Shown here piece after piece: positions 1,169 through 47,834 of a stretch of 64,000 nt of DNA; positions within the stretch are counted from its first letter, which is position 1; the number at the start of each line of letters is the position of its first letter. The position numbers and the translations under genes were made by a program. Under the pieces are notes generated by a model. It ran no database searches. It was not told where the DNA came from and was given only the letters and a program-made list of their open reading frames with translations. Source of the stretch: Xanthomonas translucens pv. cerealis (GTDB lineage: Bacteria > Pseudomonadota > Gammaproteobacteria > Xanthomonadales > Xanthomonadaceae); assembly GCF_006838285.1 (NCBI RefSeq), contig NZ_CP038228.1:2294001-2358000 (forward strand), given 5' to 3'.

Positions 1169-4045
1169 TTAGAACTTCACCGTCGCCCGCGCCCAGTAGT
1201 AGCGGCCGAGCAGATCGTAGGTGGCCACGTCGGTGTTGGCGTTGGTGACGTTGTTGGCGTAGTACAGCGGCGGCTGCTTGTCGGCCAGGTTGTCCACACC
1301 CAGCTCGAGGCGGGTGTGCCAGGGCGTGAGGTTATAGCCGACCTGCACGTTGTGATAGACATAGGAACCGATGCCGCGCACCGTGCCTGGCAGGCCGGAA
1401 TCGGCCGACAGGCTCTGCCGCGTATCTTCGCTACCGATCTCGGTGCTGCCGATGTAGCGGATGCGCCACGACGCGCTCCAGTCGCCCAGGTTCCAGCTCA
1501 GCGCGCCGAGCCCGCGCCAGCGCGGGAAGTTGCCGTAGGCCTGGGTGTACTTGCCGGCATTGTGGATGGTGACGGTGCTGGCGTCGGTGGTGTCCGGATT
1601 GATGTCGTAGCGGATCACGTAAGTGCCGTTGAGGCTGGCGTTGAAGCTGCCCCACGCGGTGTCCGGCAGGCGGTAGTTGAGGCTGAAGTCGGTGCCGCTG
1701 GCCCACAGCTTGCCTAGGTTCACGGTGGGCTCGGCGATGTAATTGATGGTGCCGTTGTCGTTGCGGTGGATCAGCGCGCAGTAGGCGCTGGACGCGTTGG
1801 GATAGCACTGGTTGAGCACGGTCTGCGCCGAGACCTGGGTGATGGTGTCCTGCAGGTTGATCTTCCACAGGTCCGCGCTCATCGACAGGCCGTCCAGCCA
1901 GCCCGGATCGTAGACCACGCCGAAATCGTAGGACTTGCCGGTCTCCGGCTTGAGCTGGTAGCCGGCCACCACTGCGCCGGACGCTTTGGCGCCGATCTGG
2001 TTGTCGGCCTGCTGGTAGCTGCCGTCGGTGGGTACGTTGGCGCAGGCCGCAGCATGGCCGCCGGTATAGCCGTTGCACGGATCCTTGACCGTGGCCGAGT
2101 CGCCGACCACGCCGGAATACAGTTCGTTGATGTTCGGCGCGCGGAACACCTGCGACACGGTGCCGCGCAGTAACAGGTTCTGGATCGGACGGTACTCCAG
2201 CGAGACCTTGCTGTTGGTCTTGCTGCCGACGCTGTCGTAGTCGGAGAAGCGGCTGCCGACGGTCAGGTTCAGCGAATGCACCAGCGGCAGGTCGGCCAGC
2301 AGCGGGAACAGCGCCTCGGCATAGGCTTCCTTGACGCTGAAGCTGCCGCCGAGCACGGTGGCGCAGAATTCGATCACCCCGCACATGCCGTTCTCGTCGC
2401 CGGTCCACAGCGGGTCGGCGGCGGTGGAAGTGCTTTCCTTGCGGTAGGACACGCCCGCGGCCAGGCTCACCGTGCCGGCCGGCAGGTCGAACAGGTTGCC
2501 GTTGGCGTTGGCCTCGAACTGCTTGACCCTGTAGACGCTGGTCACGATCGGGTTGACCACCAGCGCTTCCAGCGCTGCCTTGTTGCTCTCGCTGTTGAGG
2601 TTGAACACGTCGATCGGGGTGCAGCCGGCGATCGCCGCACCGGCGCTGCCGCACTTGACCGTGCCGTCGCTGTCCAGGAACGACGGCCCTACCGCGGCGT
2701 TGAACCCGGCGTAGTCGAGGAAACCGTGGTTGACCGACTTCTGCTTGACCTTGCCGTAGTTGACGCTGGCATCCCATTGCCAGGAGCTGTCGCCGAAGCT
2801 GCCGCGCAGGCCGGGATTGATCTGGAAATTGTAGGTGTCGTATTCGTAGCGGCGGTTGCCCAGCACCGTGGCGCGGCTGTTGAAGCTGTTGTACGAAGTA
2901 TCGGCGCTGCGGTCGGTGCCGAAGTTGGCCCCGAACGGATTGTAGTAGCTGCCGGCGGAAACCAGGAAATTGTCGCCGTTGGCGAAGACCGGGATCGGCG
3001 CGATGATCGAGGACGAGGTGGTCTTGCTGAAGTAGGTGTTGACGTAGCCTTCCAGGTGATCGTTGAAGCGGAAGCTGCCGATCACGAAGGCATTGGTGCG
3101 TTCCTGCGGCGTCTGCAGCAGGTTGTACGGCTGGTAGTTGTAGGAATCGCTGGCGGCGTCGTAGCAATGGTACTGGCTGGCATTGGTCGGGCTGCCGCTG
3201 CCGCCGTTGAAGGTGACCCGCGCGCAGCCGTTGCTCGCCGCCAGCGCCCTGGACCGGTCGGAACCTTCGTCGAAGCTGACGCTGCCGGTCGGCGTGGCCG
3301 AGGAGCCCTGCTTCACCGGCACCCCGTCGATCAGCGACAGCGCATCCTTCGAATAGCTGCGCGCGCCGGCCGAGACCGGATCGATGTCGTGGTAGGACAG
3401 GCCGGCGACGATGCTGCCGCGCTCGCCGGTCTTGCCGGCGGTCAGCGAGAAGCTGCGGCGGTTGCCGTCGCTGCGCGAGCTGGTGCCGAAGTCGGTGCTG
3501 ACCTCGATGCCGTCCAAGCCCTTGCGCAGGATGAAGTTGACCACGCCGCCGATCGCGTCCGAGCCGTACACCGCCGAGGCGCCGTCGCTGAGCACTTCCA
3601 CCCGCTCGATCATCGTCGCCGGGATCGCGTTGACGTCGTTGCTGGCCAGGCGCGTGCCGTTGACCAGGATCAGCGTGCGCTTGTCGCCCAGGCCGCGCAG
3701 CGAGATGGTCGAGGCGCCGGTGCCGCCGCCGTTGTTGGTGTTGGGGTTGGTCGCATTGCCGGCGATCGCCGGCAGTTCCTGCACCAGGTCGCCGAGCGTG
3801 GCCTTGCCGGTCGCCTCGATCTGCGCGCGGTTGATCGTCACCACCGGGTTGGCGGTCTCGGTGTCGACCCGGCGCAGGCGCGAGCCGGTGACCACTACGC
3901 TGTCCAGGGTCTGGGTCTTGCCGTCGTCCGCACTCGCCTCCTGCGCCAGCGCCGGGCATGCGGCGCCCAGCGACAATGCGGCGACCACGGCCAGCGCCAG
4001 CGGCTGCGGGCGATGGGAAGGATGGGGTGCGTGCTGGAACGGCAT
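1169..4045 (-). CDS. TonB-dependent receptor (TBDR1)
   Basis: This is an outer-membrane TonB-dependent transporter of 958 residues. The start is the ATG at 4045, preceded by AGGAG at good spacing; the open frame extends upstream to 4396 but that extension has no signal peptide. A signal peptide ends near ALAQ (residues 1–31). The TonB box TLDSVVVTGSR follows, then a plug domain (about 60–190) with LGDLVQELPAIAG, ISLRGLG and GASAVYGSDAIGGVVNFI, then the 22-strand barrel ending in an aromatic residue (VKF). It resembles TBDR3 (25029–27863) at both the TonB box/plug start and the C-terminus (YYWARATVKF against YFWARLRTEF), so the two are likely paralogues. The promoter block at 4384–4424 is shared with the arabinosidase genes, suggesting import of arabino-oligosaccharides or glycopeptides; the substrate is inferred only. 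Confidence 0.93.
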   Translation of the reverse strand: MPFQHAPHPSHRPQPLALAVVAALSLGAACPALAQEASADDGKTQTLDSVVVTGSRLRRVDTETANPVVTINRAQIEATGKATLGDLVQELPAIAGNATNPNTNNGGGTGASTISLRGLGDKRTLILVNGTRLASNDVNAIPATMIERVEVLSDGASAVYGSDAIGGVVNFILRKGLDGIEVSTDFGTSSRSDGNRRSFSLTAGKTGERGSIVAGLSYHDIDPVSAGARSYSKDALSLIDGVPVKQGSSATPTGSVSFDEGSDRSRALAASNGCARVTFNGGSGSPTNASQYHCYDAASDSYNYQPYNLLQTPQERTNAFVIGSFRFNDHLEGYVNTYFSKTTSSSIIAPIPVFANGDNFLVSAGSYYNPFGANFGTDRSADTSYNSFNSRATVLGNRRYEYDTYNFQINPGLRGSFGDSSWQWDASVNYGKVKQKSVNHGFLDYAGFNAAVGPSFLDSDGTVKCGSAGAAIAGCTPIDVFNLNSESNKAALEALVVNPIVTSVYRVKQFEANANGNLFDLPAGTVSLAAGVSYRKESTSTAADPLWTGDENGMCGVIEFCATVLGGSFSVKEAYAEALFPLLADLPLVHSLNLTVGSRFSDYDSVGSKTNSKVSLEYRPIQNLLLRGTVSQVFRAPNINELYSGVVGDSATVKDPCNGYTGGHAAACANVPTDGSYQQADNQIGAKASGAVVAGYQLKPETGKSYDFGVVYDPGWLDGLSMSADLWKINLQDTITQVSAQTVLNQCYPNASSAYCALIHRNDNGTINYIAEPTVNLGKLWASGTDFSLNYRLPDTAWGSFNASLNGTYVIRYDINPDTTDASTVTIHNAGKYTQAYGNFPRWRGLGALSWNLGDWSASWRIRYIGSTEIGSEDTRQSLSADSGLPGTVRGIGSYVYHNVQVGYNLTPWHTRLELGVDNLADKQPPLYYANNVTNANTDVATYDLLGRYYWARATVKF

Positions 4046-4644
4046 GGAGATCTCCTGAGCGATGGCGACACGTGGCATAAGCGAAAACGATGGGCCGAAC
4101 AAATCCGCGCCGGCTCGCGCCAGCGGTCGAAACTGCGATGAGGACGACGCTGCAACAGCGACGCCGGTGATACGCCTCCTGCGCCGCGGCTCTGGCAAGG
4201 CCGGACACAACGACCGGGATGCCTGCGATCCTTCACACGCTGCCCGTGCGTACATCGCGGGTCCTGCGGTGAGTGGCCAAGGGCGGTGGCGGATCCTGTC
4301 CCGCGCACCGGCCGCTGCGCCGGAAAACCAAAGGTCATCACGTTTTAACGATGCAATCACAATGTGCCTGTAACTGCGACCGGCGTCTTGTCGCAATTAG
4401 CGGTTCTGCATGCGGAATAACGCATGGTCGTGGCGCGGCGGCGCGATCGGGCGGCCGACCGGCATGCATACCCGTTGCTTTCGGTTCAGTCAGGGAGCCG
4501 GTGCATGCCGGCGTGATGCTGCGTGCAACTCGGCACAACGTCTGTCGAACCACGGCAATGGCTGCGCTCCATCGCCAAGCCGCGCCGCGTACGCAATCCA
4601 CTGGTTGGCGCGGCGGCTGGACAGGCCGCGCGCGGCGGCAGCGG
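4046..4644. other. 600-bp intergenic region upstream of TBDR1
   Basis: No convincing gene is seen between TBDR1 and the arabinofuranosidase gene. The stretch holds the conserved promoter block at 4384–4424 and the GCACATTGTG element (minus strand, 4358–4367), leaving a leader of roughly 300 nt before TBDR1. A clear rho-independent terminator for the arabinofuranosidase gene was not found. Confidence 0.6.
4384..4424 (-). promoter_or_regulatory. Shared promoter block, copy A (TBDR1)
   Basis: The palindrome TGCGGAATAACGCA (plus strand 4411–4424) is followed, reading toward TBDR1, by exactly 18 bp and then GACAAGACG (minus strand, 4392–4384). The same layout and spacing occur before four other units in this window. 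GCACATTGTG lies 16 nt further downstream. The natural reading is an activator site above a -35-like element; roles are inferred. Confidence 0.72.
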
Positions 4645-7056
4645 TCATGCGCTCTCGGCCGGGATCAACCAGCCGCCGAACAGCGGCCCGGCGGTATCGC
4701 CGTGCTGCGGCTCGATGCGGAAGGTCAGCTGCGCAGCGCGGGTCAGCGCCGGCGGCAAGGCGTAGTCGCGATCGACGAAGTCGATGACCTGGCTGCGGTC
4801 CACCTGCACCTCCACCGCCAGCTTGCCGTCGATCAGGATGTTGAAGCGGCCCTTGTCGCTGCCCCAGAAGCGCAGGCGCAGCGCCAGCGGCTGCGCGCTG
4901 CCGCGCATCTGGAATTCGACGAAGCCCTTGCCGCGCACGTCGCGACACTGCTGGCGGCGGTAGGCGCCGCCGAAGGAGGTGTCGCTGCGCAGCGTGTGCG
5001 CCTGCTCGGAAGCCTCGTCGCCGAACTGGATCATGTCCACCGCGGTGGCCTGCAGCGCCGCGCGCTCGGCTTGCTGGCGCGCGCGCCGCGCCGCTTCCTG
5101 CGCCCACTGCGCCGGCGCCAGGCGCTTGAAGTACAGCGCGCTGCGGCGCTCGTATTGCGCGTAGAACGGCACGAAGGTCAGCCCCGGCGGCTGCGTGGCG
5201 GCGGCCAGGAAATGCCCGGGCTGCGGCAATTCGGCGAACCCTGCCAATGGATCGGCCGCGGCCACCAGCGCCGGGTCCGGCGCGTCATAGGGATCGGCGA
5301 CCGGGCCAAGATCGGCGGCCAGCGCCAGCGGGCCGCGCATCACCACCACCGTGTCGGCATCGCCGGCGGCATGCTCCAGGCGCAGCGGCATCGCCAAGTC
5401 CAGTTCGATCACATCGCCGCTGCGCCACTGCCGCTCCAGCGCCAGGTAGCCGTCGGCGGCCGTGCCGCGCTGGGCCTTGCCGTTGACGCGCAGCGTGTAG
5501 CCGCCCTGGCACCAGGCCGGCAGCCGCAGCAGCAGGCGCCGCGGCGTGCGGGCGCCGGCGCGACGCAGTTGCAGCCGCACCTTGCCGTTGTCCGGCACGC
5601 CGCTGTCCAGCTCCAGCGCCAGGTCGCGCTCGGGCCAGTCCAGGGTCGAGGGGATGTACAGGTTGACGTAGAGCGACGCCGCGTCCTGCCAATAGATCGA
5701 GTCGCCGAACTGCGCATGCGCCTCCATGCCGCTGCCGACGCAGCACCAGAACGAATCGAACTTGTCGGAGAAGCCGCGCTCGCCGCCGCTGATCATCGGC
5801 GTCATGTAGGTGAACATGCCGGTGGCCGGATGCTGCGCGGCCATCGTATGGTTGTGCAGGGTGCGCTCGTAGTAGTCGAAATAGCGCGCCTGCGGCGTCC
5901 ACTGGTACAGGTGTCGGGTCAGCTTGAGCATGTTGTAGCTGTTGCAGTGCTCGCAGGTCTGCTCGGTCAGGAACGCGGCGATGCTGTCCGGTTCCTGGAA
6001 ATACTCGCGGTCGGCATTGCCGCCGATCGCGTAGCTGTAGTGGCCGGTCACCGTCTCCCAGAAGAAACGCGCCGCCGCCGCGGCGTCGGCATCGCCGGCG
6101 ACCTCGAACTGGCGCGCCTCGCCGATGAACTTGGGCACCTGGGTATTGGCGTGGATATGCGCCAGTTCGTCGCGACCGGCAGCGGCCGGATCGATCACCT
6201 TCTCGTGGCGCAGGCGCTTGCCCAGCGCGATCCAGCGCGGATCGCCGGTACGCGCGCCCAGTTCGATGTAGGACTCGTTGAGGCCGCCGAACTCGGTGTC
6301 CAGCAAGGTCTGCATCTGCACGTGGTCGAGCGCGTCGAACACCCCGCCCAGATAGCCGGCCAGCGGCACCAGCACCTGCAGCGCCTGCGCGTTGCCGGCC
6401 AGTGCGTGCGCATCGAGCAGGCCGGCGAACAGCTTGTGCACCGTGTACAGCGGCGACCAGCTGCCGTTGAGGTTGAACTTGCTGCCCTTGATGATGCCGC
6501 GGCGCACTTCCTCGAACACCACCTTGCCGTTGTCGATGGCGCCCTTGTCGTTCTTGCGGGTGAGTCCGCCGACGTAGCCGTCCGCGTCCTTGGCCTGCGC
6601 GCGCGCCAGTTCGGCCACGATGTAGTCGATGCGCTGGCGCAGCGCCGCATCGCGGGTCTGCGCATGCATCTTGGCCAGCGCGCTGAGATAGTGGCCGAGC
6701 GTGTGCCCGGCGATGGTGTCCCCTTCCCAGCCGCCGTAGACCTCGCCCTTGGGCGGCAGGCCGGCGTAGTGCAGGAAGTTGTGCAACAGGCGGTCCGGTT
6801 CCAATTCCAGCAGGTAGCGGCGGTTGGTCTGCAGCGAATCCAGAAACAGCGACGGCTTCAGCGTGACCTGCTTGAGCGGCAGCGCCTGCACCGCGCCGGC
6901 GCTCGACGCGGCGGCATCCAGCGGGAAGCGCAGCAGCCCCGCGGCCACCGCCAGCGCGCTCCACTGCAGGAAGCGCCGCCGCGATGGATCCAGCGCGTGT
7001 GTACAGGCATCGGCGTGCGGCAGCGGATCGGTGGAGGGGTCATGCATGGATTTCAT
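4645..7056 (-). CDS. Tat-exported DUF1680 beta-L-arabinofuranosidase (GH127/GH146, HypBA1-like)
   Basis: This 803-residue glycoside hydrolase is predicted to release beta-L-arabinofuranose, the sugar attached to hydroxyproline in plant extensins. The N-terminus carries a Tat signal (RRRFLQWSALAVAAG, about 26–40), so it is exported folded. The family's zinc/thiolate active site is visible: E369-x-C371 in EHCNSYNMLKL and the pair C438–C439 in FWCCVGSGME, matching the Glu/Cys ligands and the catalytic Cys known in bifidobacterial HypBA1. The (alpha/alpha)6 domain is followed by a beta-rich C-terminal region with an extra module near 680–800. The ATG at 7056 has GGTGA upstream; an internal ATG three codons later is an alternative start. 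Xanthomonas enzymes acting on Hyp-linked arabinan have been placed in GH146, which shares this catalytic design. Promoter copy B lies 200 bp upstream. Confidence 0.88.
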   Translation of the reverse strand: MKSMHDPSTDPLPHADACTHALDPSRRRFLQWSALAVAAGLLRFPLDAAASSAGAVQALPLKQVTLKPSLFLDSLQTNRRYLLELEPDRLLHNFLHYAGLPPKGEVYGGWEGDTIAGHTLGHYLSALAKMHAQTRDAALRQRIDYIVAELARAQAKDADGYVGGLTRKNDKGAIDNGKVVFEEVRRGIIKGSKFNLNGSWSPLYTVHKLFAGLLDAHALAGNAQALQVLVPLAGYLGGVFDALDHVQMQTLLDTEFGGLNESYIELGARTGDPRWIALGKRLRHEKVIDPAAAGRDELAHIHANTQVPKFIGEARQFEVAGDADAAAAARFFWETVTGHYSYAIGGNADREYFQEPDSIAAFLTEQTCEHCNSYNMLKLTRHLYQWTPQARYFDYYERTLHNHTMAAQHPATGMFTYMTPMISGGERGFSDKFDSFWCCVGSGMEAHAQFGDSIYWQDAASLYVNLYIPSTLDWPERDLALELDSGVPDNGKVRLQLRRAGARTPRRLLLRLPAWCQGGYTLRVNGKAQRGTAADGYLALERQWRSGDVIELDLAMPLRLEHAAGDADTVVVMRGPLALAADLGPVADPYDAPDPALVAAADPLAGFAELPQPGHFLAAATQPPGLTFVPFYAQYERRSALYFKRLAPAQWAQEAARRARQQAERAALQATAVDMIQFGDEASEQAHTLRSDTSFGGAYRRQQCRDVRGKGFVEFQMRGSAQPLALRLRFWGSDKGRFNILIDGKLAVEVQVDRSQVIDFVDRDYALPPALTRAAQLTFRIEPQHGDTAGPLFGGWLIPAESA

Positions 7057-7463: not shown

Positions 7464-9323
7464 TTACTGCGAGCGCGGCGTTGCGGTGACTTCAGGCACT
7501 GCGCCGGTCAGATCCGCACCGTATTCCGGGTCCAGGATCAACCCAGGATCCACGTAGCCGTAGAACACGCCCTTGCTTGGCGACGCCCCGCGTTCCTCTG
7601 CATCGCCGCGCAACTGGGCATTACCGGACAGCGTGAATGCTTCGAACGCGCCCGGCCCCATGAACACCGTATGCACCTGGGCGCTGTCCCGAATCGTCGC
7701 TCCATCGTGCACTACGCTCAAGCCACCGACCACGACGTTGTCCTGGACGGTGCCGCCCATGATCGTGGCATGGTCCTGGATCCGGGCATTGCCCAGCACC
7801 TGCCCACCAAGCACGCGCGCGTCCGGGCCGACGTAGGCGGTGGGCGCGACATAGGCATTGCGCGCGACCCAGCCGCCACCGTTGGCGTGGCGGGTGCCGA
7901 GCGCCGTCGGCGTCGGCGCATTCGGCTGGCGGCCGGATGGATAGGCATTGTCGAGCGTGACGCTCCACGGGTAGCGATAGATCGAGTAATAAGACTGGTC
8001 CCACTTGATCTTGTGCATTTTGCTCGGTGTGCCCATCACCACCAGATAGAGCCCGGTATCGCCACGCTTCAGATCGAACTGCAGCGAAGCGCTGGCGCCG
8101 CGCTGCAAAGGGCTGTAACGCGCCTTGCCCGCCGCATCGATCGCAACCACGCCCCAGCGCCAGTCCGAATCGGGCAAGGCGATGGCACTGGGATCGTTGT
8201 CCAAGCCCGGCAATACGTTCACCGCGGACTGCGTCTGCACATCGCCTGCGAACTTGACGCCGATCGCGGCGGCGCCGGCAGCGGGAATCAACCGTACCAG
8301 GTTGTAGCCCCAACGCTGCGGCGCCCAATCGAACGGCACGCGGTAGCGGCGCTCCTGGCCCGGCACCTGGTCGAGCTGGGTCAGGCGCAAGGCGAGATCA
8401 CGGTTATTCCAATCCGCGGTGTTTTCTGGATCGAACGCATCGTTACTGCCGTATTGTTCGCGCATCAACACGCCATGATCGCGACCATCGGGATCGGTGT
8501 AATCCCAGTTCACGTTATGCATCGCCCAGTCGCCAAACACGTCGTTGAGCTGCGACTGGGTCCAGCCCATGTTGTCGCGGATGACCGAGAACGGATCCGC
8601 ATCGGCCAGGCCGGGATCGCCGGACTTGGGCGCCTTGGCCCACATGTCGTTGATGATGGAATAGCCGAAACGGTCCTTGAGATACTCCATGAATTGCCAG
8701 TTGCAGTAGCGGTCCCGGGTCGAGCCCAGGTAGAGATGCGGATAGTTCACAAGCGTCGTCGAGCAGTGAACCTCGGTGTTGTGGTACTCATCGATCTGGT
8801 GCGCCATCCAGTTGGCATGCGATTCCCAGATCCAGCCGGTGTACTCCGACTCGGTCAAACCACCGCTGGCGCCTTGCAGCGCATGGGTAAGTTCATGCGC
8901 CATATCCCAGTGATCCTGCAACAGGGAGATCGAAACCCACATGCCCATTCCGCCACTGTCGGTGACCCCGCCATGCATGCCAAAGTCGGACTTCAAATAG
9001 ATGCTGACCTTGTACTTCGTCGCCGAAGCGCAATAGGGTTCTGGAAAACGGATGCGGTTGATATAGGTGTTCCAGATCAATTCCAGTTCCTTGCCTGCCG
9101 CTTCCAGATCGGCGCGGGGAACCTGTTCTGCATCTTCCCAGCGGAACGCAAAGTGCGTGGTTTCGTAGCGCACTGCCGGCATGTCGGTGTCATTGGGATT
9201 GGCGACCCATTGGCCAGCGCTGCAGACGGCTGCCGCATGCGCGATGTGCGGCGCCAGGGCCAAACCAGCCGACATGCAAAGGCACGCGACTATGCGTAAC
9301 AATGACGACAGGGAACGTTTCAT
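7464..9323 (-). CDS. Svx/AvrXca-family secreted metallopeptidase with beta-helix tail
   Basis: A 619-residue secreted protein. A signal peptide (about 1–29, ending AHA) fits Sec export and probably type II secretion. A gluzincin-type zinc motif H143-E144-L-T-H147 is followed by W-E167-S-H-A-N, a plausible third ligand. Residues about 500–585 form hexapeptide-like repeats (VAPTAYVGPDARVLG and similar) typical of a left-handed beta-helix. The domain order resembles the Svx/AvrXca virulence–avirulence family; Svx of Pectobacterium is reported to be a gluzincin peptidase presumed to target plant extensins. That activity fits the adjacent Hyp-arabinan enzymes. The ATG at 9323 has AGGAGAG upstream. 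It does not carry the shared promoter block, so control may differ. The family call rests on motif recognition, not on an alignment. Confidence 0.78.
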   Translation of the reverse strand: MKRSLSSLLRIVACLCMSAGLALAPHIAHAAAVCSAGQWVANPNDTDMPAVRYETTHFAFRWEDAEQVPRADLEAAGKELELIWNTYINRIRFPEPYCASATKYKVSIYLKSDFGMHGGVTDSGGMGMWVSISLLQDHWDMAHELTHALQGASGGLTESEYTGWIWESHANWMAHQIDEYHNTEVHCSTTLVNYPHLYLGSTRDRYCNWQFMEYLKDRFGYSIINDMWAKAPKSGDPGLADADPFSVIRDNMGWTQSQLNDVFGDWAMHNVNWDYTDPDGRDHGVLMREQYGSNDAFDPENTADWNNRDLALRLTQLDQVPGQERRYRVPFDWAPQRWGYNLVRLIPAAGAAAIGVKFAGDVQTQSAVNVLPGLDNDPSAIALPDSDWRWGVVAIDAAGKARYSPLQRGASASLQFDLKRGDTGLYLVVMGTPSKMHKIKWDQSYYSIYRYPWSVTLDNAYPSGRQPNAPTPTALGTRHANGGGWVARNAYVAPTAYVGPDARVLGGQVLGNARIQDHATIMGGTVQDNVVVGGLSVVHDGATIRDSAQVHTVFMGPGAFEAFTLSGNAQLRGDAEERGASPSKGVFYGYVDPGLILDPEYGADLTGAVPEVTATPRSQ

Positions 9324-12980: not shown

Positions 12981-13356
12981 GGGCGTTCTCTCGGTTAATC
13001 GGCCTGCACGCAAAATCCAGGCCGCACGACGCCGCGTCCTCGCTGCCCGACGCAACCAGAACCGGTATCGATCGATGGAGGCCGTGCATCCCCGCACGGC
13101 GCAAAATGCGTTGTGCGCTGGCGCACATCGCCATCGCAGGGTTTCACGTCCGCAGGTGCAGCGTCTTGTGGAAAAACCTCGCCTTTGATGTGGAAATTTG
13201 TCATATGTCGCAACGGACTGCAGGAACCGGCACACCTCGCTGCAACCTCATGCACGCGCGTGCACCAGCCTCAGCGAATGCATTCGGCCGTGCCGGTGCC
13301 GGCCGCAACGGCTGTCCGCAGGCTGACGATCGCCGCGATTGCGGTCGAACACACGA
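12981..13356. other. Intergenic region with TBDR2 promoter
   Basis: No gene is supported. The region contains promoter block copy C (13162–13202), the most degenerate of the five in its palindrome but exact in spacing and in the CACAAGACG element. Confidence 0.6.
13162..13202 (-). promoter_or_regulatory. Shared promoter block, copy C (TBDR2)
   Basis: TGTGGAAATTTGTC (13189–13202) lies 18 bp from CACAAGACG (minus strand, 13170–13162). The palindrome arm is degenerate, but the distance and the 9-mer are exact, which is why it is accepted. Confidence 0.6.
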
Positions 13357-30545: not shown

Positions 30546-30600
30546 GTACCGTCCCCCCGATGAGCAATAGCGCATCATCGTGCGCCGCAGGGGGCGGTCA

Positions 30601-31095: not shown

Positions 31096-31135
31096 GCGCG
31101 TTTGCTCGTTGGGCGGCCGCAGCGCGGCCGCAAGG

Positions 31136-37726: not shown

Positions 37727-37730
<4 letters not shown>
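35907..37730 (-). CDS. DUF885 family putative zinc peptidase (DUF885a)
   Basis: 607 residues, exported (signal peptide about 1–27, ending ATAA). DUF885 proteins are predicted gluzincin-like metallopeptidases. Here the motif region reads LTLHESSPGHALQ, with EGWAVYSE about 40 residues later and a YLGELKIIALRRKAE helix near the C-terminus. Compared with its neighbour's HEGVPGHH, the motif has Ala in place of the second His of the GHH pair, so metal binding or activity may differ. The start at 37730 overlaps the upstream stop by 4 nt (ATGA) and follows GGAGA. Co-transcription with Hyp catabolism suggests a role in cleaving Pro/Hyp-containing peptides; no substrate is known from sequence. Confidence 0.85.
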
Positions 37731-39559
<1,829 letters not shown>

Positions 39560-40832: not shown

Positions 40833-42421
40833 GCCGCGCGCTCCACGTCGGCGACGCTCCACTGGCCGTCGATCAGCCGTTGCACGCCGCCGGGATTGCG
40901 GTCGCGCAGCAGTTCCGGCAGCAGCGCATCGGGCAGCCCGTCATAGCTGTGCAACGCGGCGAAACGGCGGATCGCGGCCGGCATGCCGACCGCAGTGAAA
41001 CCCGGATGGCCGGTGCTCGGGTAAGGCCCGCCGTGGTTCATCGCCGCGCTGACCGCCACGCCGGTCGGCATCTTGTTGCAGATCAGGCGTCCGACCCGCG
41101 GCCGCAACGCGGCGGCCAGCTCGGCGAACAGCACATCGTCGCTGCCGTCGGCGGCGCGGTACACGGTGCCGGTGAGGTTGCCCTCCAGGCTGTGCGCCAA
41201 CGCGGTCATCTGCGCCAGACCGGCAACGCGCACCACCAGGCTGACCGGGCCGAACGCCTCGGTCTGCAACGCCTCGGGCTGTTGCAGGAAGGCCTGCGCC
41301 GACACCGCCAGCAGAGTCGGCGCATGCCGGTAGCCCGGCGCTGGCGCGGCTTCGCCGCCGGCCAGCACACTGGCGCCGGCATTGCGCAACGTGAGCACGC
41401 CGCGCTGCAGGTGCTCGAGCACGCCACGCGAGAACAGCAGGCTCGGCGCGGCCGCGGTGAAGTGCGCACTGGCCGCGGCGACGAACGCATCGCCGGCCTC
41501 GCCCTCGGGTACCACCACGATGCCGGGATTGGTGCAGAACTGGCCGCTGCCCATCGTGCACGAGGCGAAGAATTCCTGCGCCAGCGCCGCGCCGCGCTCG
41601 GCAAGCGCGCCCGGCAGCAGGAACACCGGATTGACGCTGGACAACTCGACGTAGGCCGGCACCCCGGCACGGTCGGCCGCGGCCTTCAGCGCCAGTCCGC
41701 CGGCACGGCTGCCGGTGAAGCCGATCGCGCCCAGCCGCGGATCGCCGGCCAGTTCCAGGCCCAGCGTGTTGTCGAAGTGGTACAGCAACTGCACCGCCGC
41801 GGCCGGCAGGCCGTTGTCCAGCAGCGCCTGATGCGCGAGTTGCGCCAGGCGTTGGCTGGTGGCCGGATGCGACGGATGCGCCTTGGCGATGACCGGATTG
41901 CGCGCGGCGATGGCCGAGGCGAAATCGCTGCCGGCCACCGCGTTGAACGCGAACGGGAAATTGTTCGGGCCGAACACCAGCACCGGCTTGTGCAACGGCC
42001 CCAGCTGCGCGCGCAGGCCGGCCGCGGTATCGATCACCGGCTGCGTCCAGCTATGGCTGCGCACCGCCTGCGCGGCCTGGCGCAGCTGGCCGCTTGCGCG
42101 CGGCAACTCCACCTTGGCCAAGCGCGGTTCGACCGGCAAGCCGGTCTCGGCATGCGCCAGTGCGACCAACTGCTCCACGTCGGCATCGATCGCCGCGGCG
42201 TAGGCATCGAGGAACCCGGCGATGCGCTCGGGCGGGGCCGCGGCCAGCGCGTCGGCGACCAGCACCGACGCGCTCAGCGCCGCTTCCAGGTCGGCGGCGC
42301 CGCTGACCGGGAATTCCGGTCCGAACGCATTCCCGTCGCGCGGGTCCTCGGCACGGAAGCTGCCACGCGCTTCCAGCGACGGCTGCCAACGGCCGGCAAG
42401 CAACAGCGGCTGCATGCTCAT
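40829..42421 (-). CDS. Alpha-ketoglutaric semialdehyde dehydrogenase (aldehyde dehydrogenase family)
   Basis: 530 residues. It would oxidise 2,5-dioxopentanoate to 2-oxoglutarate, the last step of hydroxyproline breakdown. The ALDH signatures are present: FGPNNFPFAFNAVAGSD for the NAD(P) site, ELSSVNP containing the general-base Glu, and GSGQFCTNPG with the catalytic Cys. The divergence from betaine-type ALDHs and the context match the KGSADH group found in Hyp and arabinose pathways. L-arabinose released by the neighbouring glycosidases could also feed this enzyme if a non-phosphorylating arabinose route exists elsewhere. Two starts are possible: 42421 (MSMQ) or 42415, the latter with a better GAGATGAG ribosome binding site. 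Confidence 0.88.
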   Translation of the reverse strand: MSMQPLLLAGRWQPSLEARGSFRAEDPRDGNAFGPEFPVSGAADLEAALSASVLVADALAAAPPERIAGFLDAYAAAIDADVEQLVALAHAETGLPVEPRLAKVELPRASGQLRQAAQAVRSHSWTQPVIDTAAGLRAQLGPLHKPVLVFGPNNFPFAFNAVAGSDFASAIAARNPVIAKAHPSHPATSQRLAQLAHQALLDNGLPAAAVQLLYHFDNTLGLELAGDPRLGAIGFTGSRAGGLALKAAADRAGVPAYVELSSVNPVFLLPGALAERGAALAQEFFASCTMGSGQFCTNPGIVVVPEGEAGDAFVAAASAHFTAAAPSLLFSRGVLEHLQRGVLTLRNAGASVLAGGEAAPAPGYRHAPTLLAVSAQAFLQQPEALQTEAFGPVSLVVRVAGLAQMTALAHSLEGNLTGTVYRAADGSDDVLFAELAAALRPRVGRLICNKMPTGVAVSAAMNHGGPYPSTGHPGFTAVGMPAAIRRFAALHSYDGLPDALLPELLRDRNPGGVQRLIDGQWSVADVERAA

Positions 42422-42422: not shown

Positions 42423-43328
42423 TCAGAGTCCGGGGTGGGTGGCGATGGCGTGGTCGATCACCTTCAGCGCCGCTTCGCGCTCGGCGCCGTCGACGACCAG
42501 GCGCGGTGCGCGCACGCGCTCGCTGCCCAGGCCGACCTTCTCCTGCACCAGCTTGATCAGCTGCACGAACTTGGGCACGGTGTCCAGGCGCAGCAGCGGC
42601 AGGAACCAGTCGTACAGCGCCTTGGCCGCCGGGTAGCCGCCGTCGCGGGCCAGCTCGAACAGCTTCACCGACTCCTTCGGATACGCATTGACCAGGCCGG
42701 CGATCCAGCCCTGGGCGCCCATGCTGATGCCTTCGACGATCGCATCGTCCATGCCCACCAGCAGCACCAGGCGGTCGTTGAGCAGTTCGCCCAGCGCGGC
42801 GAAGCGGCGCACGTCGCCGGAGGATTCCTTGACCGCTTGCAGGTTCGGGAATTCGGCGGCCAGCTCGGCGATCTGCGCCGGGCTGAAATCGGTCTTGTAA
42901 GCGACCGGGTTGTTGTACAGGATCACCGGCAGGTCGGTGGCGGCGATCACCGCACGCGCATGCGCGCCCATCTCGCGCCAGTCGGTGGAGTACACGTACG
43001 GCGGCAGCACCATGATGCCGCCGCAGCCGACCTGCTTGGCCGCCTGCGCCAGGCGCACGGCCTCGTCGGTGGACAGCGCGGCGATGCCCGGCACCACCGG
43101 GATGCGGCCGCCCAGCGCCTGCACCAGGGTCTTCAGGATCGCGACCTTGTCGTCGAAGCTGAGCGTGGCGGCCTCGCCGAGCGAGCCCAGCGGCACGATC
43201 GCGGTGCAGCCGGCGTCGACCATGACCTGCGCATGCTTGGCCAGGAACGCGTGGTCGATGCTGCCGTCGGCATTGAACGGAGTGGTGATGGCCGGCAGCA
43301 CGCCGTACCAAAAAGAAGCCTTGCTCAT
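42423..43328 (-). CDS. DapA-family delta1-pyrroline-4-hydroxy-2-carboxylate deaminase
   Basis: 301 residues of the dihydrodipicolinate synthase/N-acetylneuraminate lyase superfamily. The Schiff-base Lys lies in LQAVKESSGDVRR, the helper Tyr in PVILYNNP, and the substrate loop in PLGSLGEAATLS. In Hyp operons the family member deaminates and dehydrates delta1-pyrroline-4-hydroxy-2-carboxylate to alpha-ketoglutaric semialdehyde. The gene lies between the dehydrogenase alpha subunit (4-nt gap) and the semialdehyde dehydrogenase (1-nt gap), exactly at that place in the pathway, so function is assigned mainly by context. Confidence 0.9.
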   Translation of the reverse strand: MSKASFWYGVLPAITTPFNADGSIDHAFLAKHAQVMVDAGCTAIVPLGSLGEAATLSFDDKVAILKTLVQALGGRIPVVPGIAALSTDEAVRLAQAAKQVGCGGIMVLPPYVYSTDWREMGAHARAVIAATDLPVILYNNPVAYKTDFSPAQIAELAAEFPNLQAVKESSGDVRRFAALGELLNDRLVLLVGMDDAIVEGISMGAQGWIAGLVNAYPKESVKLFELARDGGYPAAKALYDWFLPLLRLDTVPKFVQLIKLVQEKVGLGSERVRAPRLVVDGAEREAALKVIDHAIATHPGL

Positions 43329-43332
43329 GGGA

Positions 43333-44673
43333 TTACACCTTGTCGAGGGTTGTGAGTGGAGGTTCGGGAAGCAGGGGATCGGGAAGCGATCGGGCGAGCG
43401 CGTCCAGGCGCACCGGGAACAGCGGCGGCCGGCGGCCGTCGTCGGAAAAATCGTCGTGGCGGGGCGCCAGCCCCAGCTCGGTCAGCGCACTGCCGCAGAT
43501 GCGGCCCTGGCAGGCGCCCATGCCGCAGCGCGAGACCAGCTTGGCGTCGCGCAGGTCGGCATGACCGTGCAAGGCCGACAGCGGCACGTCTTCGCAGCGG
43601 CACACCAGCGTGTCCGGTGCGGCCAGCGCGTGGATGCGCGGGTCCAGCGCGAACTGCCGCTGCAGCAACGCCGCGAACGCGCGTGCGCGCCGCCGCTGCG
43701 GCTGCAATGCCTGCGCCGCGGCGCCCTGCCCGGCGGCCAGGTGTCCGGCGATGGCGCCTTCGACGCGCGCGCAATCGCGCCCGCCGATGCCCAGCGCCTC
43801 GCCGGCGGCGTACACGCCTGCGACGCTGGTATGCAACTGCGCGTCCACCGCCACGCACGGATGCGCGCCGCTGCGCCCCAGCCGGCAGCCGAGCAGTTGC
43901 GCCAGCTCCACGTTCGGCACCAGTCCGTAGCCGACCGCCAGCTGCTCGCAGTCGATGCTGCGGCGGCCGCGCGGGCCGTCGATCTGCACCGATTGCAGCT
44001 GGCCGTCGCCATGCGCCGACAGCACCACGCTGCCGCTGTAATAGGCGACGCCGGCCAACTGCGCGCGCAGGCTCAGCGCCTGCAGCGCCTTGTCCGGCCA
44101 GCGCCACGGCAGTTGCGCGGCGAAGCCGGCCAGATTGCGCAGCGAGGCCTGTTCGACGATGCCCAGCACCTGCGCGCCGTGGCGCCGCAGCGTCGCCGCG
44201 CTGGCCAGCAGCAGCGGGCCGCTGCCGGCCACCAGTACGCGCTTGCCGGCCAACGGCCAGCCCTGCTTGGCCAGCGCCTGCGCGCCGCCGGCGCCGGTGA
44301 CGCCGGGCAGGGTCCAGCCGGGGAACGGCAGCAGCAATTCGCGCGCGCCGGTGGCCAGCACCAGTGCGTCGTAACCGATCCAGCGCGTGCCCTGCGGGCC
44401 ATCGGCCAGCAGTTGTCGGTCCTGCGCCATCAACAACTGGGTCTGCGCCAGAAATTCGATCTTGCTCGCCGCCAGCTGCGCCAGCACGCGCGCGGCCAGC
44501 TTCGGCGGCGCATGGGCCACATCGTGACGCCAGATCTGGCCGCCGGCGCGCGCCTGCAGATCGACCAGGGCCACGCGCCGGCCATGCCCAGCCGCGGCAA
44601 GCGCCGCCGCCAGTCCGGCCGGACCGGCACCGGCCACGATCACGTCGTAGTGCAGCGCGCGCGGCTCAGGCAT
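43333..44673 (-). CDS. D-hydroxyproline dehydrogenase, FAD/NAD(P)-binding subunit (alpha, HcnB-like)
   Basis: 446 residues. The start at 44673 lies just before the dinucleotide fold YDVIVAGAGPAGLAAALAAA; the longer open frame upstream is a shadow of the ferredoxin-like gene. A GGQIWRHD loop, a second NAD-type GSGPLLLASAATL motif, and a C-terminal BFD-like cysteine cluster (CRCEDVP…CGMGACQGRICG, C-x-C…C-x4-C) probably binding [2Fe-2S] are visible. Together with the small 2Fe-2S and FAD subunits it forms the heteromeric D-Hyp dehydrogenase known from Pseudomonas and relatives, passing electrons from D-Hyp to the respiratory chain. It overlaps the small subunit gene by 8 nt. Confidence 0.87.
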   Translation of the reverse strand: MPEPRALHYDVIVAGAGPAGLAAALAAAGHGRRVALVDLQARAGGQIWRHDVAHAPPKLAARVLAQLAASKIEFLAQTQLLMAQDRQLLADGPQGTRWIGYDALVLATGARELLLPFPGWTLPGVTGAGGAQALAKQGWPLAGKRVLVAGSGPLLLASAATLRRHGAQVLGIVEQASLRNLAGFAAQLPWRWPDKALQALSLRAQLAGVAYYSGSVVLSAHGDGQLQSVQIDGPRGRRSIDCEQLAVGYGLVPNVELAQLLGCRLGRSGAHPCVAVDAQLHTSVAGVYAAGEALGIGGRDCARVEGAIAGHLAAGQGAAAQALQPQRRRARAFAALLQRQFALDPRIHALAAPDTLVCRCEDVPLSALHGHADLRDAKLVSRCGMGACQGRICGSALTELGLAPRHDDFSDDGRRPPLFPVRLDALARSLPDPLLPEPPLTTLDKV

Positions 44674-44914
44674 CGGTCCACACCTGCATGCCGGCGCGCA
44701 CCGGGGTGATGCAGGCGCGCCACTGACCGACGCCGTCGATGCGCACCCGGCATTCGCTGCACACGCCCATGCCGCACAGCGGCGCGCGCGGCTGGCCGCT
44801 GCGCGAACGGCGGAAATGCGCCGCCACCTGCGCCACGGCCGCGGCCACGCTGCTGCCGTCCAGCACCTCGACAGTCTGCCCATTGACCTGCAGGCGCAGC
44901 ATCGGCGCGCTCAC
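44666..44914 (-). CDS. D-hydroxyproline dehydrogenase, small [2Fe-2S] subunit (gamma, HcnA-like)
   Basis: 82 residues from the GTG at 44914 (GTGA overlap with the upstream stop), or 78 from the ATG at 44902. The short ferredoxin-like fold shows PLCGMGVCSECRVRIDGVGQWRAC: a C-x4-C-x2-C-x11-C cluster binding one [2Fe-2S] centre. Overlaps of a few bases on both sides show tight coupling with the two flavoprotein subunits, in line with a stable heteromeric dehydrogenase. Proteins of this size in Hyp operons serve as the electron relay between the two flavins. Confidence 0.85.
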   Translation of the reverse strand: MSAPMLRLQVNGQTVEVLDGSSVAAAVAQVAAHFRRSRSGQPRAPLCGMGVCSECRVRIDGVGQWRACITPVRAGMQVWTDA

Positions 44915-46011
44915 GACAGCGCCCGCATGGGCGCGAACGGCGCCGGATCCAGCGCAGGGGTGCGCTGCAGCAGCAGATCCAGCAGCAAGCGCGCGCTGCC
45001 CAGCGCGGTGGTCACGCCCAAGCCTTCGTGGCCGGCCGCGACCCAAACGCCATCGCGCTCCGGCACCGCGCCCAGGTAGGGACGGCCATCGGGCGTGGCC
45101 GGACGCAGCCCGGTCCAGACCCGGATCGCCTGCAGCTGGCGCAACGCCGGCAGGAACGCGAACGCGCGCTCGAGCATGCGTTGCAGCATCGGCATCGACA
45201 CGCTGCGATCGCTGGCATCGAATTCGCGCGAGGAGCCGATCAGGATCTGCCCGGTCGGCCGCGGCTGCACGTTGAACGCCACGCTGCTGCCGTCGCTGCC
45301 ATGCGCGCTGTCGGCATAGCCAAGCTCCAGCAATTGGTGGCCGACGAAGCCGGGATAGCGGTCGGTGATGACCAGTTGCCCCTTGCGCGCACGCATCGGC
45401 AATTCCGGCAGCAACTCCGTCAACGCGCAGCCGGTGGCGACCAGCACCGGCCCGCTCAGCCGGCTGCCGTCGTCCAGCAGCACGCCGCCGCCGGCCAGCG
45501 CCAGCGCGCGGCACCCGGCATACAGCTGCGCACCGGCGGCGAGCGCCCGCTCGACCAGATGTCGCGCCATCCGCGGCGGATACACCACCGCTTCGGCGGC
45601 CACGCGCATGCCGCCGGCCAGCCCCGGCACCAGCGCCGGCTCCAGCCGGTACAACGCCTCGGCATCGATCGCCTCGGCGTGCACGCCGGCCGCAGCCAGG
45701 CGTTGGATCTTGGCCGGGATCGCCTCCAGCTCGCTTGCCTGCCGCGCCACCCACAGCGTGCCGCAGCGGCTGAATTCGGCCGCCGGCAAGTGCGCGAATT
45801 CTTCCCACAGGCGCAGCGAATACGCCGACAGCGCCAATTCCGCAGGATCCTCGTCCATCGCCACCAGATGGCCCATCGCCGCAGCGGTGGAACCGCCGCC
45901 AATCGTGCCCGACTCGACGATCGCCACCCGCAACCCGGCCGCCGCGGCCGCATCGGCGCAGGCCGCGCCGACGATGCCGGCGCCGACGACGATCAGGTCG
46001 AAGCCGCTCAT
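44911..46011 (-). CDS. D-hydroxyproline dehydrogenase, FAD-dependent oxidoreductase subunit (beta, DAO family)
   Basis: 366 residues of the D-amino-acid oxidase (DAO) family. The N-terminal FAD fold [23 protein letters not shown] begins at residue 3, [22 protein letters not shown] lies near 40, and the C-terminal [16 protein letters not shown]…[14 protein letters not shown] is typical of glycine/proline-type DAO subunits. It would be the subunit that oxidises D-hydroxyproline to the pyrroline. The start at 46011 overlaps the epimerase stop (ATGA); the longer open frame runs through the epimerase and is not used. Confidence 0.88.
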
Positions 46012-46949
46012 CCGGCGCCGATGCCCCAGGCGAACGGATCCTGCGCATCGATCAGCAACTGCGCGCGCGCGGTGAGATGCGCCTGCCCGGTGATCCGCGG
46101 CAGCACGCCGCGGCTGCCAGCCACGTAGCTGCCTTCGAACAGGCTGCCGAGGATGCCCTCCTGGCGCCACACCTGGCCGGGCGCCAGCTTGCCGTCGGCG
46201 GCCAGGCACGCCAGCTTGGCGCTGGTGCCGGTGCCGCACGGCGAGCGGTCGTAGGCCAGGCCCGGGCACAGCACGAAGTTGCGCGCATCGGCGCCGGCGC
46301 CAGGCGCCGGGCCGTTGATCTCGATATGGTCGATCTCGCCATCGTCGGCGCCGCGGATGCCGGCCGCTTCCAGCGCCAGCCGCAGCGCTTCGGTGTACGC
46401 GGTCAGCGCGCGCTGGTTGCGCAGCTCCAGCGCGCACGGCGTCTGCTCGGTGATGAAGAACCAGTTGCCGCCCCAGGCCACGTCGCCACGCACGCGGCCG
46501 TAGCCCGGCACCTGCACCTCAATGCTGGCGGCGTGGCGGTAGCTTTCCACGTTGTCCACCGAGACCCGGCCGTCGTCGTGCAACTTCACCCCGACCGTCC
46601 CCACCGGGGTCTCGATGCGGTGCGTGCCCGGCGCCAGCCGGCCCAGCTCGGCCAGCGTGCGCACCAGGCCGATGGTGCCGTGGCCGCACATGCCCAGATA
46701 GCCGACGTTGTTGAAGAAGATCACCGCGGCGCAGGCATCGGCCGCGATCGGCGGCAACAGCAGCGCGCCGACCATGGTGTCCGAGCCGCGCGGCTCGCAG
46801 GCGATGGCGCTGCGCCAGCGATCGAAGCGATCGCGGAACAGATCGCGCCGCTGCGGCAGCGGGCCGGTGCCCAGGTCGGGAAAGCCGGCGACGACGACAC
46901 GGGTCGGTTCGCCGCCGGTATGCGAGTCGATCACATCGAGTGTATGCAT
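46008..46949 (-). CDS. 4-hydroxyproline 2-epimerase (proline racemase family)
   Basis: 313 residues. It interconverts trans-4-hydroxy-L-proline and cis-4-hydroxy-D-proline, the entry step of the pathway. The two catalytic cysteines are present: C88 in [10 protein letters not shown] and C238 in [11 protein letters not shown], a pair that separates 4-Hyp epimerases from trans-3-Hyp dehydratases, which have Thr at the second site. D234 and the HTGGEPTR start are also typical. It is the first gene of an operon of 11 genes; the ATG at 46949 is about 57 bp from the palindrome at 47006–47019, and no strong ribosome binding site is seen. Confidence 0.94.
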
Positions 46950-47126
46950 AGATCCATGCTCACATTCCGGGCCACTGGCGGCTAGCAGCGTTTGCGTGTC
47001 ATAAATGCGGAAGTTCGCACAACCCCAGCGTCCCGGAAGGCCCGACTTAGGCTAGGATCGACAAACAGGGGGAGGCTTGCCGCGGCTTGCCTGCCGCCGC
47101 AGCCTACTACCGCCCGGTGAGTGCAG
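46950..47126. other. Divergent promoter region of the Hyp operon and its regulator
   Basis: This 177-bp gap separates the epimerase gene from the PAS–AraC gene. It contains the palindrome at 47006–47019 and, on the plus strand, a TTAGGCTAGGAT stretch (about 47047–47058) that could serve as a -10 for the regulator. The 18-bp/ACAAGACG arrangement of copies A–E is not repeated here in recognisable form. Confidence 0.6.
47006..47019. promoter_or_regulatory. Palindromic operator-like site, TGCGGAAGTTCGCA
   Basis: TGCGGAAGTTCGCA is the most symmetric copy of the palindrome found upstream of the arabinoside genes. On the minus strand the 9-mer at the expected 18-bp distance is TGCTAGCCG, matching CACAAGACG at only 5 of 9 positions, so promoter structure differs. 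Its central position between divergent genes suits control of both. Confidence 0.65.
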
Positions 47127-47834
47127 ATGGATACTTTGATTTCCGCGCTGGAAATGCAGACGCTGTTCGACGCGCTGCCGGACGTGGTGTTCTTCGTCAA
47201 GGACCGCGACGGCCGCTACACCCACGTCAACCTGACCCTGGTGCGGCGTCTGGGCAAGAAATACCGTGCCGACCTGATCGGCAAATCGGCGCTGGAAGTG
47301 TTCCCGCTGCCGCTGGGCGGCAGCTACGTGATGCAGGACCGGCGCGTGCTGTGCGGCGAGATGATCGAGAACCAGTTGGAAGTGCACCTGTTCCCGAACC
47401 GCACCCCGGGCTGGTGCCTGACCTTCAAGCGCCCGCTGTGCGAGCACAACGAAGTGATCGGCGTGGTCGGCATCTCGCGCGACCTGGGCCAGCCGGACAG
47501 CCGCCATTCGGCCTACGAACGCATCAGCCGCGCGATGGAGCACATGCAGAACCACTACGGCGACAACCTGCGCGTGCAGACCCTGGCCGACCTGGCGGAA
47601 CTGTCGGTGGCGCAGCTGGAACGGCATTTCCGCCGCGTGTTCCAGCTGACCCCGCAGCAATTACTGACCAAGATGCGCATCGAAGCGGCGATGCGCCTGC
47701 TGCATGGCGAGGACAGCATCGCCAGCATCGGCCAGGTCTGCGGCTTTGCCGACCAGAGCGCGTTCGCGCGCCAGTTCAAGGCCACCGTCGGCATGACCCC
47801 GCGGGATTATCGGTCGATGAAGGGGAAGCTTTGA
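47127..47834 (+). CDS. PAS-domain AraC family transcriptional regulator of the Hyp operon
   Basis: 235 residues: an N-terminal PAS-like sensor (about 8–115, FDALPDVVFFVKDRDGRYTHVN) and a C-terminal AraC-type double helix-turn-helix (about 130–232, VQTLADLAELSVAQLERHFRRVF and IASIGQVCGFADQSAFARQFKATVGMTPRDYR). It probably senses hydroxyproline or a pathway intermediate and activates the divergent operon. The ATG at 47127 is preferred over the GTG at 47121 because GGTGA lies at good spacing. Whether it binds the palindrome is unknown: AraC proteins usually read direct repeats, which is a point against it. Confidence 0.85.
   Translation: MDTLISALEMQTLFDALPDVVFFVKDRDGRYTHVNLTLVRRLGKKYRADLIGKSALEVFPLPLGGSYVMQDRRVLCGEMIENQLEVHLFPNRTPGWCLTFKRPLCEHNEVIGVVGISRDLGQPDSRHSAYERISRAMEHMQNHYGDNLRVQTLADLAELSVAQLERHFRRVFQLTPQQLLTKMRIEAAMRLLHGEDSIASIGQVCGFADQSAFARQFKATVGMTPRDYRSMKGKL

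Follow-up and report, generated by a model that had tools for sequence, protein, structure and literature searches.

A probable hydroxyproline-glycoprotein utilization locus in Xanthomonas translucens and its relatives

Background

The removal of arabinose from hydroxyproline (Hyp)-linked plant glycans has been described in Xanthomonas euvesicatoria, where Nakamura et al. (PMC6085000) report three glycosidase steps, carried out by XeHypAA, XeHypBA2 and XeHypBA1. Here we describe a 64-kb stretch (the window) of the one-contig, 4.62-Mb genome of Xanthomonas translucens pv. cerealis, in which GH43, GH121 and GH146 homologues of these enzymes lie next to a presumed operon for trans-4-Hyp catabolism. 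An S9 peptidase gene adjoins the glycosidases in both species; that of X. euvesicatoria, a prolyl oligopeptidase, is a pseudogene. The X. euvesicatoria genes have an HrpX box, which is not found here, and the available part of that report deals with three enzymes and does not mention Hyp catabolism. It does state that X. euvesicatoria is unable to use L-arabinose, and it poses the reason for possessing the enzymes as a question.

The HypAA/HypBA1/HypBA2 cluster of Bifidobacterium longum (PMC7263609) shares the logic of arabinoside degradation, but there the sugar is the food and is imported by an ABC transporter, and no Hyp operon is mentioned in the accessible sections. The nearest regulatory parallel is the HypR regulon of Proteobacteria (PMC5343134), in which one regulator governs the Hyp enzymes and the Alteromonadales add secreted collagenases and a TonB transporter, so that polymer digestion is tied to Hyp use. 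HypR is a GntR regulator and the polymer is animal collagen, whereas the present locus has an AraC-family regulator with a PAS domain (AraC-PAS) and glycosidases for plant glycoproteins. A study of 4-hydroxyproline epimerase neighbourhoods (PMC4113996) covers the same HypE family, including the solved X. campestris enzyme (4JUU); as far as its available text goes, peptidases are mentioned only for the trans-3-Hyp dehydratase neighbours of bacilli, and no arabinosidase link is seen. Svx of Pectobacterium (PMC13164431), of the same family as the Svx encoded in the window, cleaves carrot extensin, with no tie to glycosidases or Hyp use mentioned in the part at hand. Degradation of hydroxyproline-rich glycoproteins has also been inferred for Latescibacteria, from gene content only (PMC4454575). 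In the open-access literature we found no report joining arabinosidases and Hyp catabolism in one locus. This agrees with an initial annotation of the window, made from the sequence alone, which held that the glycosidase part was described and that its link to peptidases and Hyp oxidation looked under-described: the glycosidase steps are already published, whereas the link, the regulatory site reported below and a glycosidase-like protein that we call TatGH were not found in print.

Linkage of deglycosylation and Hyp catabolism

Between positions 1169 and 47834 the window contains two blocks of genes, nearly all on the minus strand (Table 1). The glycan block comprises TatGH; a run of TonB-dependent receptor (TBDR) TBDR4, GH121, GH43 and the S9 peptidase S9a; TBDR2; Svx; GH146; and TBDR1. 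The Hyp block runs from HypE through the DAO, 2Fe-2S and FAD subunits of a presumed D-Hyp dehydrogenase, a deaminase, an aldehyde dehydrogenase, an M24 peptidase, two DUF885 proteins and a permease to a second S9 peptidase (S9b), with overlaps or gaps of less than 200 bases and the AraC-PAS gene divergent. The genes named in the initial annotation are all present (Pfam, NCBIfam and structure-chain matches). It did not mention the shared site, TatGH, a chemoreceptor, a 78-amino-acid 2Fe-2S-type open reading frame (ORF) or a broken TonB receptor.

We consider it likely that these genes form one conserved, jointly switched locus for Hyp-glycoprotein utilization, leading from deglycosylation through backbone cleavage to Hyp catabolism, because their linkage is conserved over two families and they share a predicted regulatory site. 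Secreted GH43, GH121 and GH146 enzymes would strip extensin-type plant proteins of their Hyp-linked arabinosides, as has been demonstrated for the X. euvesicatoria homologues (PMC6085000), and TatGH may remove a further sugar. The S9, DUF885 and M24 enzymes, with Svx where present, would cut the bared Hyp/Pro-rich chain; the TonB receptors and the permease would take up the fragments; and HypE, the three-subunit D-Hyp dehydrogenase, the deaminase and the aldehyde dehydrogenase, judged by homology, would convert Hyp to 2-oxoglutarate. Through the palindrome ATGCGGAAAT-NN-GCACAA, the AraC-PAS regulator probably gives joint control of the Hyp operon, TatGH, the TBDR4-GH121-GH43 operon, GH146, TBDR1 and the chemoreceptor. 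Arabinose would be the wrapping and hydroxyproline the main payload. Extensin is suggested as the substrate by analogy with published assays of homologues, and co-induction of the units and growth on such a substrate would be expected.

The arrangement recurs in whole-genome samples, whose members are relatives and not independent. All 20 congeneric genomes (the present one included) have both a GH121 match and HypE, 19–23 kb apart and on the same strand. Regions were fetched from 18 of the other congeners (all but G001), and gene order is constant across them for whatever genes they contain; S9a, Svx, one DUF885 gene and some receptors are variably present. The fetched G013 and G015 regions stop short of the glycan block. 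In a sample of 198 genomes of the family, GH121 was found in 19 (5 of 54 genera) and HypE in 41 (G151 with a weak relative only). HypE accompanies GH121 in 19 of 19 genomes compared with 22 of the 179 others (Fisher P = 1.7e-15, uncorrected for descent). Ten of the GH121 genomes belong to other genera. In seven of them HypE shares the contig and strand of GH121, at a distance of 24.6–32.9 kb; in three the genes are split over contigs. Where the contigs allow, the order GH43, GH121, TBDR4, TatGH is kept in these genomes (G048 shows only part of it), the distal end being taken by GH146 and TBDR1 in variable order. HypE was likewise present in all 31 named GH121 genomes, several of them shared with the family sample; carriers of GH121 include X. 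arboricola, X. euvesicatoria, X. albilineans, Pseudoxanthomonas helianthi and [Pseudomonas] boreopolis. In a sample of 398 genomes of the phylum, GH121 was found only in the present genome.

Across the order, 29 of the 299 genomes sampled encode TatGH; they belong to two families. Each of the 29 has HypE on the same contig, 9.5–27.3 kb away, and on the same strand in all cases except one. A GH127-family enzyme adjoins TatGH in 8 of the 10 genomes of the second family (three confirmed by Pfam), and in one genome (G856) S9b, a GH35-like gene, TatGH and GH146 are consecutive, no overlap or gap between neighbours exceeding 11 bases.

A shared predicted regulatory site

Nearly every spacer between hypE and the AraC gene (48 of 49) contains a palindrome whose clearest form is ATGCGGAAATTCGCACAA and which mostly lies 56–60 bases from hypE. 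These sites were located with a consensus read off the alignment, and the 17 distinct ones make up a site matrix. A site was counted when it scored at least 13 within 300 bp upstream of a gene, each genome being counted once; this threshold was picked after the first scores were known, and at 11 or 15 the count for TatGH is 34/36 or 33/36. Upstream regions shorter than 250 bp, GH127 matches below 50% identity and matches starting past residue 60 were left out, and duplicates were removed (L109, L128 and L129 repeat G002, G061 and G186).

The site recurs upstream of HypE (49/51) and AraC (48/50), which share one spacer and are the training place, and upstream of TatGH in 34 of 36 genomes, including 20/20 in the genus of the window and 12/12 in a second genus (g17); the two misses are G061 and G186. 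Lower frequencies were obtained for TBDR1 (6/10), GH146 (11/30; 9/14 in the own genus) and TBDR4 (7/33). Each of 17 other genes had the site at most once: GH121 1/38, GH43 0/37, S9a 1/25, TBDR2 0/7, relatives of the broken receptor 0/5, Svx 0/10, S9b 0/35, permease 0/37, the DUF885 genes 1/41 and 0/27, M24 0/42, aldehyde dehydrogenase 1/48, deaminase 0/49, FAD subunit 0/44, DAO subunit 0/45, FtsY 1/17 and MutY 0/28. Sixty column-permuted matrices gave means of 0 to 0.8% per gene, with maxima for single matrices of 0.33 of upstreams (aldehyde dehydrogenase) and 0.20 for several genes. In alignments of the TatGH and TBDR1 upstream regions, the site and a second block, ACAAGACG, are kept while the flanks diverge. 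Among 11 further genomes, none of them in the training set, the site was found at the hypE spacer in 11/11 and at the GH127 gene in 7/9.

Within the window, the best matches outside the training site precede GH146, TatGH, the chemoreceptor gene and TBDR1, in that order (scores in Table 1). Eight Markov shuffles had top scores of 8.6–21.5, and single sites are therefore not conclusive. A relaxed pattern matches 6 times in the window compared with 0.39 expected, and 30 times genome-wide, so that 6 of 30 matches fall within 1.4% of the genome; this count is partly circular because the pattern was loosened to fit sites already seen. The chemoreceptor has the site in 8 of 8 orthologues, all in the own genus (5 of 13 fetched flanks have no orthologue), and chemotaxis toward Hyp or Hyp peptides may be part of the regulon. 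A second chemoreceptor elsewhere in the genome (C1:760426, L143) has a 21.9-bit site upstream. TonB receptors and secreted glycosidases are present; with a common regulator, which is predicted from the site, they might make this a carbohydrate utilization locus (CUT/PUL-like).

The palindrome could instead belong to a global regulator, which would leave the two halves without a dedicated link. The 30 genomic matches speak for this; the stronger ones include places before tsaD and a phage baseplate gene, which look like chance, and a 20.7-bit match (L149) in a spacer without a related gene. The concentration of matches in the window, partly circular as it is, and the proximity of the hypE site to the AraC gene, seen in 48 of 50 spacers, argue against a global regulator, which we regard as very unlikely.

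Evidence against a single pathway and alternative explanations

A number of observations weigh against the proposal of one jointly switched pathway. Where HypE occurs without GH121 (22 family genomes), its neighbours include M24 in 14 genomes, a DUF885 gene in 13 and S9b-like genes (at least 61% identity) in 5; the regions fetched were at most 20 kb, and the G034 contig stops inside the operon. The link between peptidases and Hyp is therefore a general one, with no restriction to arabinosylated proteins, and M24 and DUF885 serve Hyp peptides at large. Dyella marensis has its GH121 module on one contig (670,117 bases) and HypE on another (493,268 bases; G825 and G233, with identical HypE coordinates, are taken as the same genome). 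Linkage and site counts among relatives partly reflect common descent. The genome itself encodes elsewhere a pentonate dehydratase 85% identical to that of P. helianthi, so that the organism might use arabinose.

The peptidase counts and the D. marensis arrangement would be expected if two functionally separate systems were adjacent by descent, one harvesting arabinosides and the other a general operon for Hyp/Pro-peptides from collagen, gelatin or any Hyp-containing peptide. A GPH-type sugar symporter adjoining the glycosidases in [Pseudomonas] boreopolis points the same way, as do the SDR and the pentonate dehydratase that separate the two blocks in P. helianthi. That both halves are preceded by the shared site, in several genera and also in a second family, is difficult to reconcile with separate systems, as is the invariable linkage of TatGH to HypE. 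Moreover, one rearranged genome (G826) still keeps the set within 20 kb, and the locus of P. helianthi (G186) is intact though the FtsY-MutY flank of other genomes was not seen. We therefore consider two separate systems improbable. Arabinose use was dropped as a discriminator, as the P. helianthi pentonate dehydratase has a close homologue in all 20 congeners (fragmented in G004, complete in the other 19).

Membership and control of the proposed pathway are also affected. Svx, found in only 8 of 20 congeners, S9a and TBDR2 lack the site, and for these two reasons we do not count them as core. The initial annotation had proposed that all the genes form one pathway; the core of this proposal is supported by the two-family linkage and the shared predicted site, while Svx, S9a and TBDR2 fall outside the core and M24 and DUF885 have the wider role given above. 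The GH146 genes of genus g17 have no site (0/12), and a single permuted matrix reached 0.18 for TBDR4 compared with the 7/33 observed, which makes GH146 and TBDR4 the weakest members of the regulon. Binding of the AraC protein to the predicted site is assumed from position.

Other points concern infection. X. euvesicatoria remains pathogenic after deletion of all three glycosidase genes, and in some strains either BA2 or the neighbouring S9 gene is a pseudogene (PMC6085000). In the congener G019, GH121 and a DUF885 gene are fragmented and GH43 is unmatched. Infection thus appears not to require the glycosidases, and in places they are in decay. HrpX controls the BA2-AA operon of X. euvesicatoria, whereas the HrpX plant-inducible promoter (PIP) box, TTCGB-N15-TTCGB, has no match in the 64-kb window, and HrpX control within it was rejected. 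One could nonetheless imagine a locus for virulence or suppression of defence, in which the plant wall is weakened by sugar removal and by Svx, and feeding is secondary. HrpX induction and expression in planta of the X. euvesicatoria operon (PMC6085000) would suit it, as would the role of Svx as a virulence factor in Pectobacterium (PMC9266454). The pathogenicity of the triple mutant and the missing HrpX box count against it, and so does the absence of Svx from 12 of 20 congeners. The core also recurs in Luteibacter, Dyella and Pseudoxanthomonas, which are mostly not plant pathogens. We give this explanation little credence.

If the single utilization pathway is correct, it would answer why X. 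euvesicatoria keeps Hyp-arabinosidases, the sugars being stripped so that hydroxyproline can be eaten, and the locus would be to plant glycoproteins what the Hyp regulons of Alteromonadales are to collagen. TatGH and the one regulator offer direct test points.

TatGH and the known glycosidases

TatGH has no Pfam family in a Pfam scan. A model built with an alignment (pLDDT 81.8) resembles (alpha/alpha)6 glycosidases; a fold computed without alignment (pLDDT 38) was discarded. A profile search against PDB sequences gave nothing beyond one match at E 0.63, and no single GH family is prominent in the list of structural matches, so none was assigned. Twin-arginine-like signals are found at the start of both TatGH and GH146. 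We speculate, as a possibility slightly more doubtful than not, that a Hyp-glycoprotein regulon under the AraC-PAS regulator extends across the lineage and covers every stage from chemotaxis, deglycosylation and peptidolysis to the formation of 2-oxoglutarate, and that TatGH founds an undescribed glycosidase family for Hyp-linked (or neighbouring Ser-linked) plant-protein sugars, tied to Hyp catabolism rather than sugar use. Two genomes, G154 (L096) and G171 (L104), have the Hyp block and TatGH and lack GH121.

The GH121 gene is concealed among overlapping ORFs. The minus-strand frame from 20698 to about 25011 was taken in place of frame 20876–25111, which had no match. Its catalytic part matches chain 6m5a, a beta-L-arabinobiosidase, with E 1.1e-218 over residues 25–840, in line with the initial annotation, and among the named loci its closest relative is that of X. 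bonasiae FX4 (95%); we regard the genome as that of an early-branching Xanthomonas. Acidic residues occur in its matching conserved stretches and may include counterparts of the three conserved residues of HypBA2, E383, D515 and E713 (PMC7263609).

For the DUF1680 enzyme the nearest chain is 5opj (E 3e-133, 449 bits), which we take to be the GH146 enzyme BT0349; 8k7x follows with 174 bits, and the "non-reducing end" chains 3wre, 3wkw and 7exu give 53–54 bits. By sequence, the catalytic domain is nearer to GH146 than to GH127 structures, and the X. euvesicatoria homologue has been named GH146 (PMC10850190).

In relatives, GH27 alpha-galactosidases adjoin the glycan block (P. helianthi, D. marensis, G826) and GH35/DUF5597 genes sit between TatGH and the Hyp block (G133, G061, G856). 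Extensin serines bear alpha-galactose (PMC9266454). These accessory genes, absent from the window, are consistent with a glycoprotein substrate.

Peptidases and Hyp enzymes

Svx scores 1044 bits against NCBIfam NF040510 (cut-off 625), as the initial annotation had anticipated, with HExxH at residue 143. In the eight congeners that have it, it lies on the same strand, 25–37 kb from HypE; the G019 copy has an internal stop. A distant DUF6055 protein (Svx-like, 24% identity) is encoded close to the S9a gene in some Xanthomonas sensu stricto genomes, as in G133 (L063:14603–16591). GxSxGG is present in S9a and S9b. The nearest chain to S9b is 2ecf, a dipeptidyl peptidase IV (E 3e-48), which we take to be the S. 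maltophilia enzyme. A reference title in PMC5807507 names a 4-hydroxyproline substrate for the enzyme of that species.

HypE passes NF010577 (455 bits, cut-off 442) and has the cysteine motifs MCGHG and SPCGTGT, of catalytic type, which we take to mark epimerases and not dehydratases. The 78-amino-acid ORF fits a three-part D-Hyp dehydrogenase. By families and layout, the epimerase, dehydrogenase, deaminase and semialdehyde dehydrogenase genes that had been named as the full Hyp set lie together in one operon, presumably for trans-4-Hyp catabolism; HypE alone reaches a specific equivalog cut-off, and the other roles are presumed from position.

Features of the window

Table 1. Positions of genes and predicted sites in the window
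Feature	Position	Strand	Basis or remark
TonB-dependent receptor TBDR1	1169..4396	-	Pfam; relatives adjoin GH127-type enzyme and TatGH
Predicted site upstream of TBDR1, 13.2 bits	4410..4427	+	site matrix
GH127/146 (DUF1680) beta-L-arabinofuranosidase, GH146-like, Tat-type signal	4645..7047	-	Pfam, structure-chain matches
Predicted site upstream of GH146 gene, 24.7 bits	7286..7303	+	site matrix
Svx/AvrXca metallopeptidase, HExxH	7464..9323	-	NCBIfam NF040510
TonB-dependent receptor TBDR2	9978..13235	-	Pfam
Probable TonB-dependent receptor in three frames	13357..16449	-	pieces 13357-13848, 13921-15957, 15970-16449
S9 prolyl-type peptidase S9a	16771..19089	-	Pfam, motif
GH43 enzyme, HypAA homologue by position and family	19109..20701	-	overlaps GH121 stop
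GH121 beta-L-arabinobiosidase, HypBA2 homologue	20698..~25011	-	chain 6m5a match
TonB-dependent receptor TBDR4	25029..28058	-	true start probably ~27863
Weak predicted site upstream of TBDR4, 8.6 bits, under threshold	28120..28137	+	site matrix
TatGH, Tat-type (alpha/alpha)6 glycosidase-like protein, no Pfam family	28176..30578	-	predicted structure
Predicted site 49 bp upstream of TatGH, 17.3 bits	30627..30644	+	site matrix
S9 DPP-IV-like peptidase S9b	31698..34013	-	Pfam; chain 2ecf
APC-type amino acid permease	34143..35714	-	Pfam
DUF885 protein, presumed peptidase	35907..37730	-	Pfam
DUF885 protein, presumed peptidase	37727..39559	-	Pfam
M24 prolidase-like peptidase	39624..40832	-	Pfam/family match
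Aldehyde dehydrogenase, presumed 2-oxoglutarate semialdehyde dehydrogenase	40829..42421	-	family and operon position
DHDPS-family protein, presumed pyrroline-4-hydroxy-2-carboxylate deaminase	42423..43328	-	family and operon position
FAD subunit, presumed D-Hyp dehydrogenase	43333..44673	-	family match
Small 2Fe-2S-type subunit (78-aa ORF), presumed D-Hyp dehydrogenase	44666..44902	-	read by eye, no family scan
DAO-family FAD subunit, presumed D-Hyp dehydrogenase	44911..46011	-	Pfam
4-hydroxyproline 2-epimerase HypE	46008..46949	-	NF010577, cysteine motifs
Predicted site between hypE and AraC gene, 29.2 bits, part of training set	47005..47022	+	
AraC-family regulator with PAS domain, divergent from hypE	47121..47834	+	Pfam
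Chemoreceptor (MCP), predicted regulon member, site upstream	59485..61221	-	
Predicted site upstream of chemoreceptor gene, 16.9 bits	61345..61362	+	site matrix

The three pieces between 13357 and 16449 are probably a broken receptor, judging from their position and relatives; the middle piece has a full-length match in X. albilineans (L132). A tRNA-Arg(cct) called by ARAGORN at 27694–27790 sits within the TBDR4 ORF and is probably false.

In P. helianthi (G186, L061–L062), the stretch from TatGH to the Hyp block spans a GH127-like ORF (25% match) and a presumed GPH sugar symporter ORF (unscanned), and also holds an SDR resembling xylose dehydrogenases and a dehydratase of the arabinonate/xylonate type. 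2-Oxoglutarate semialdehyde could be the point where pentose oxidation joins Hyp catabolism.

Between TatGH and S9b in the window, positions 30787–31369 contain one or two small ORFs, and the counterpart of the small ORF in G008 (102 amino acids) reads like a flagellar rod/hook-type N-terminus.

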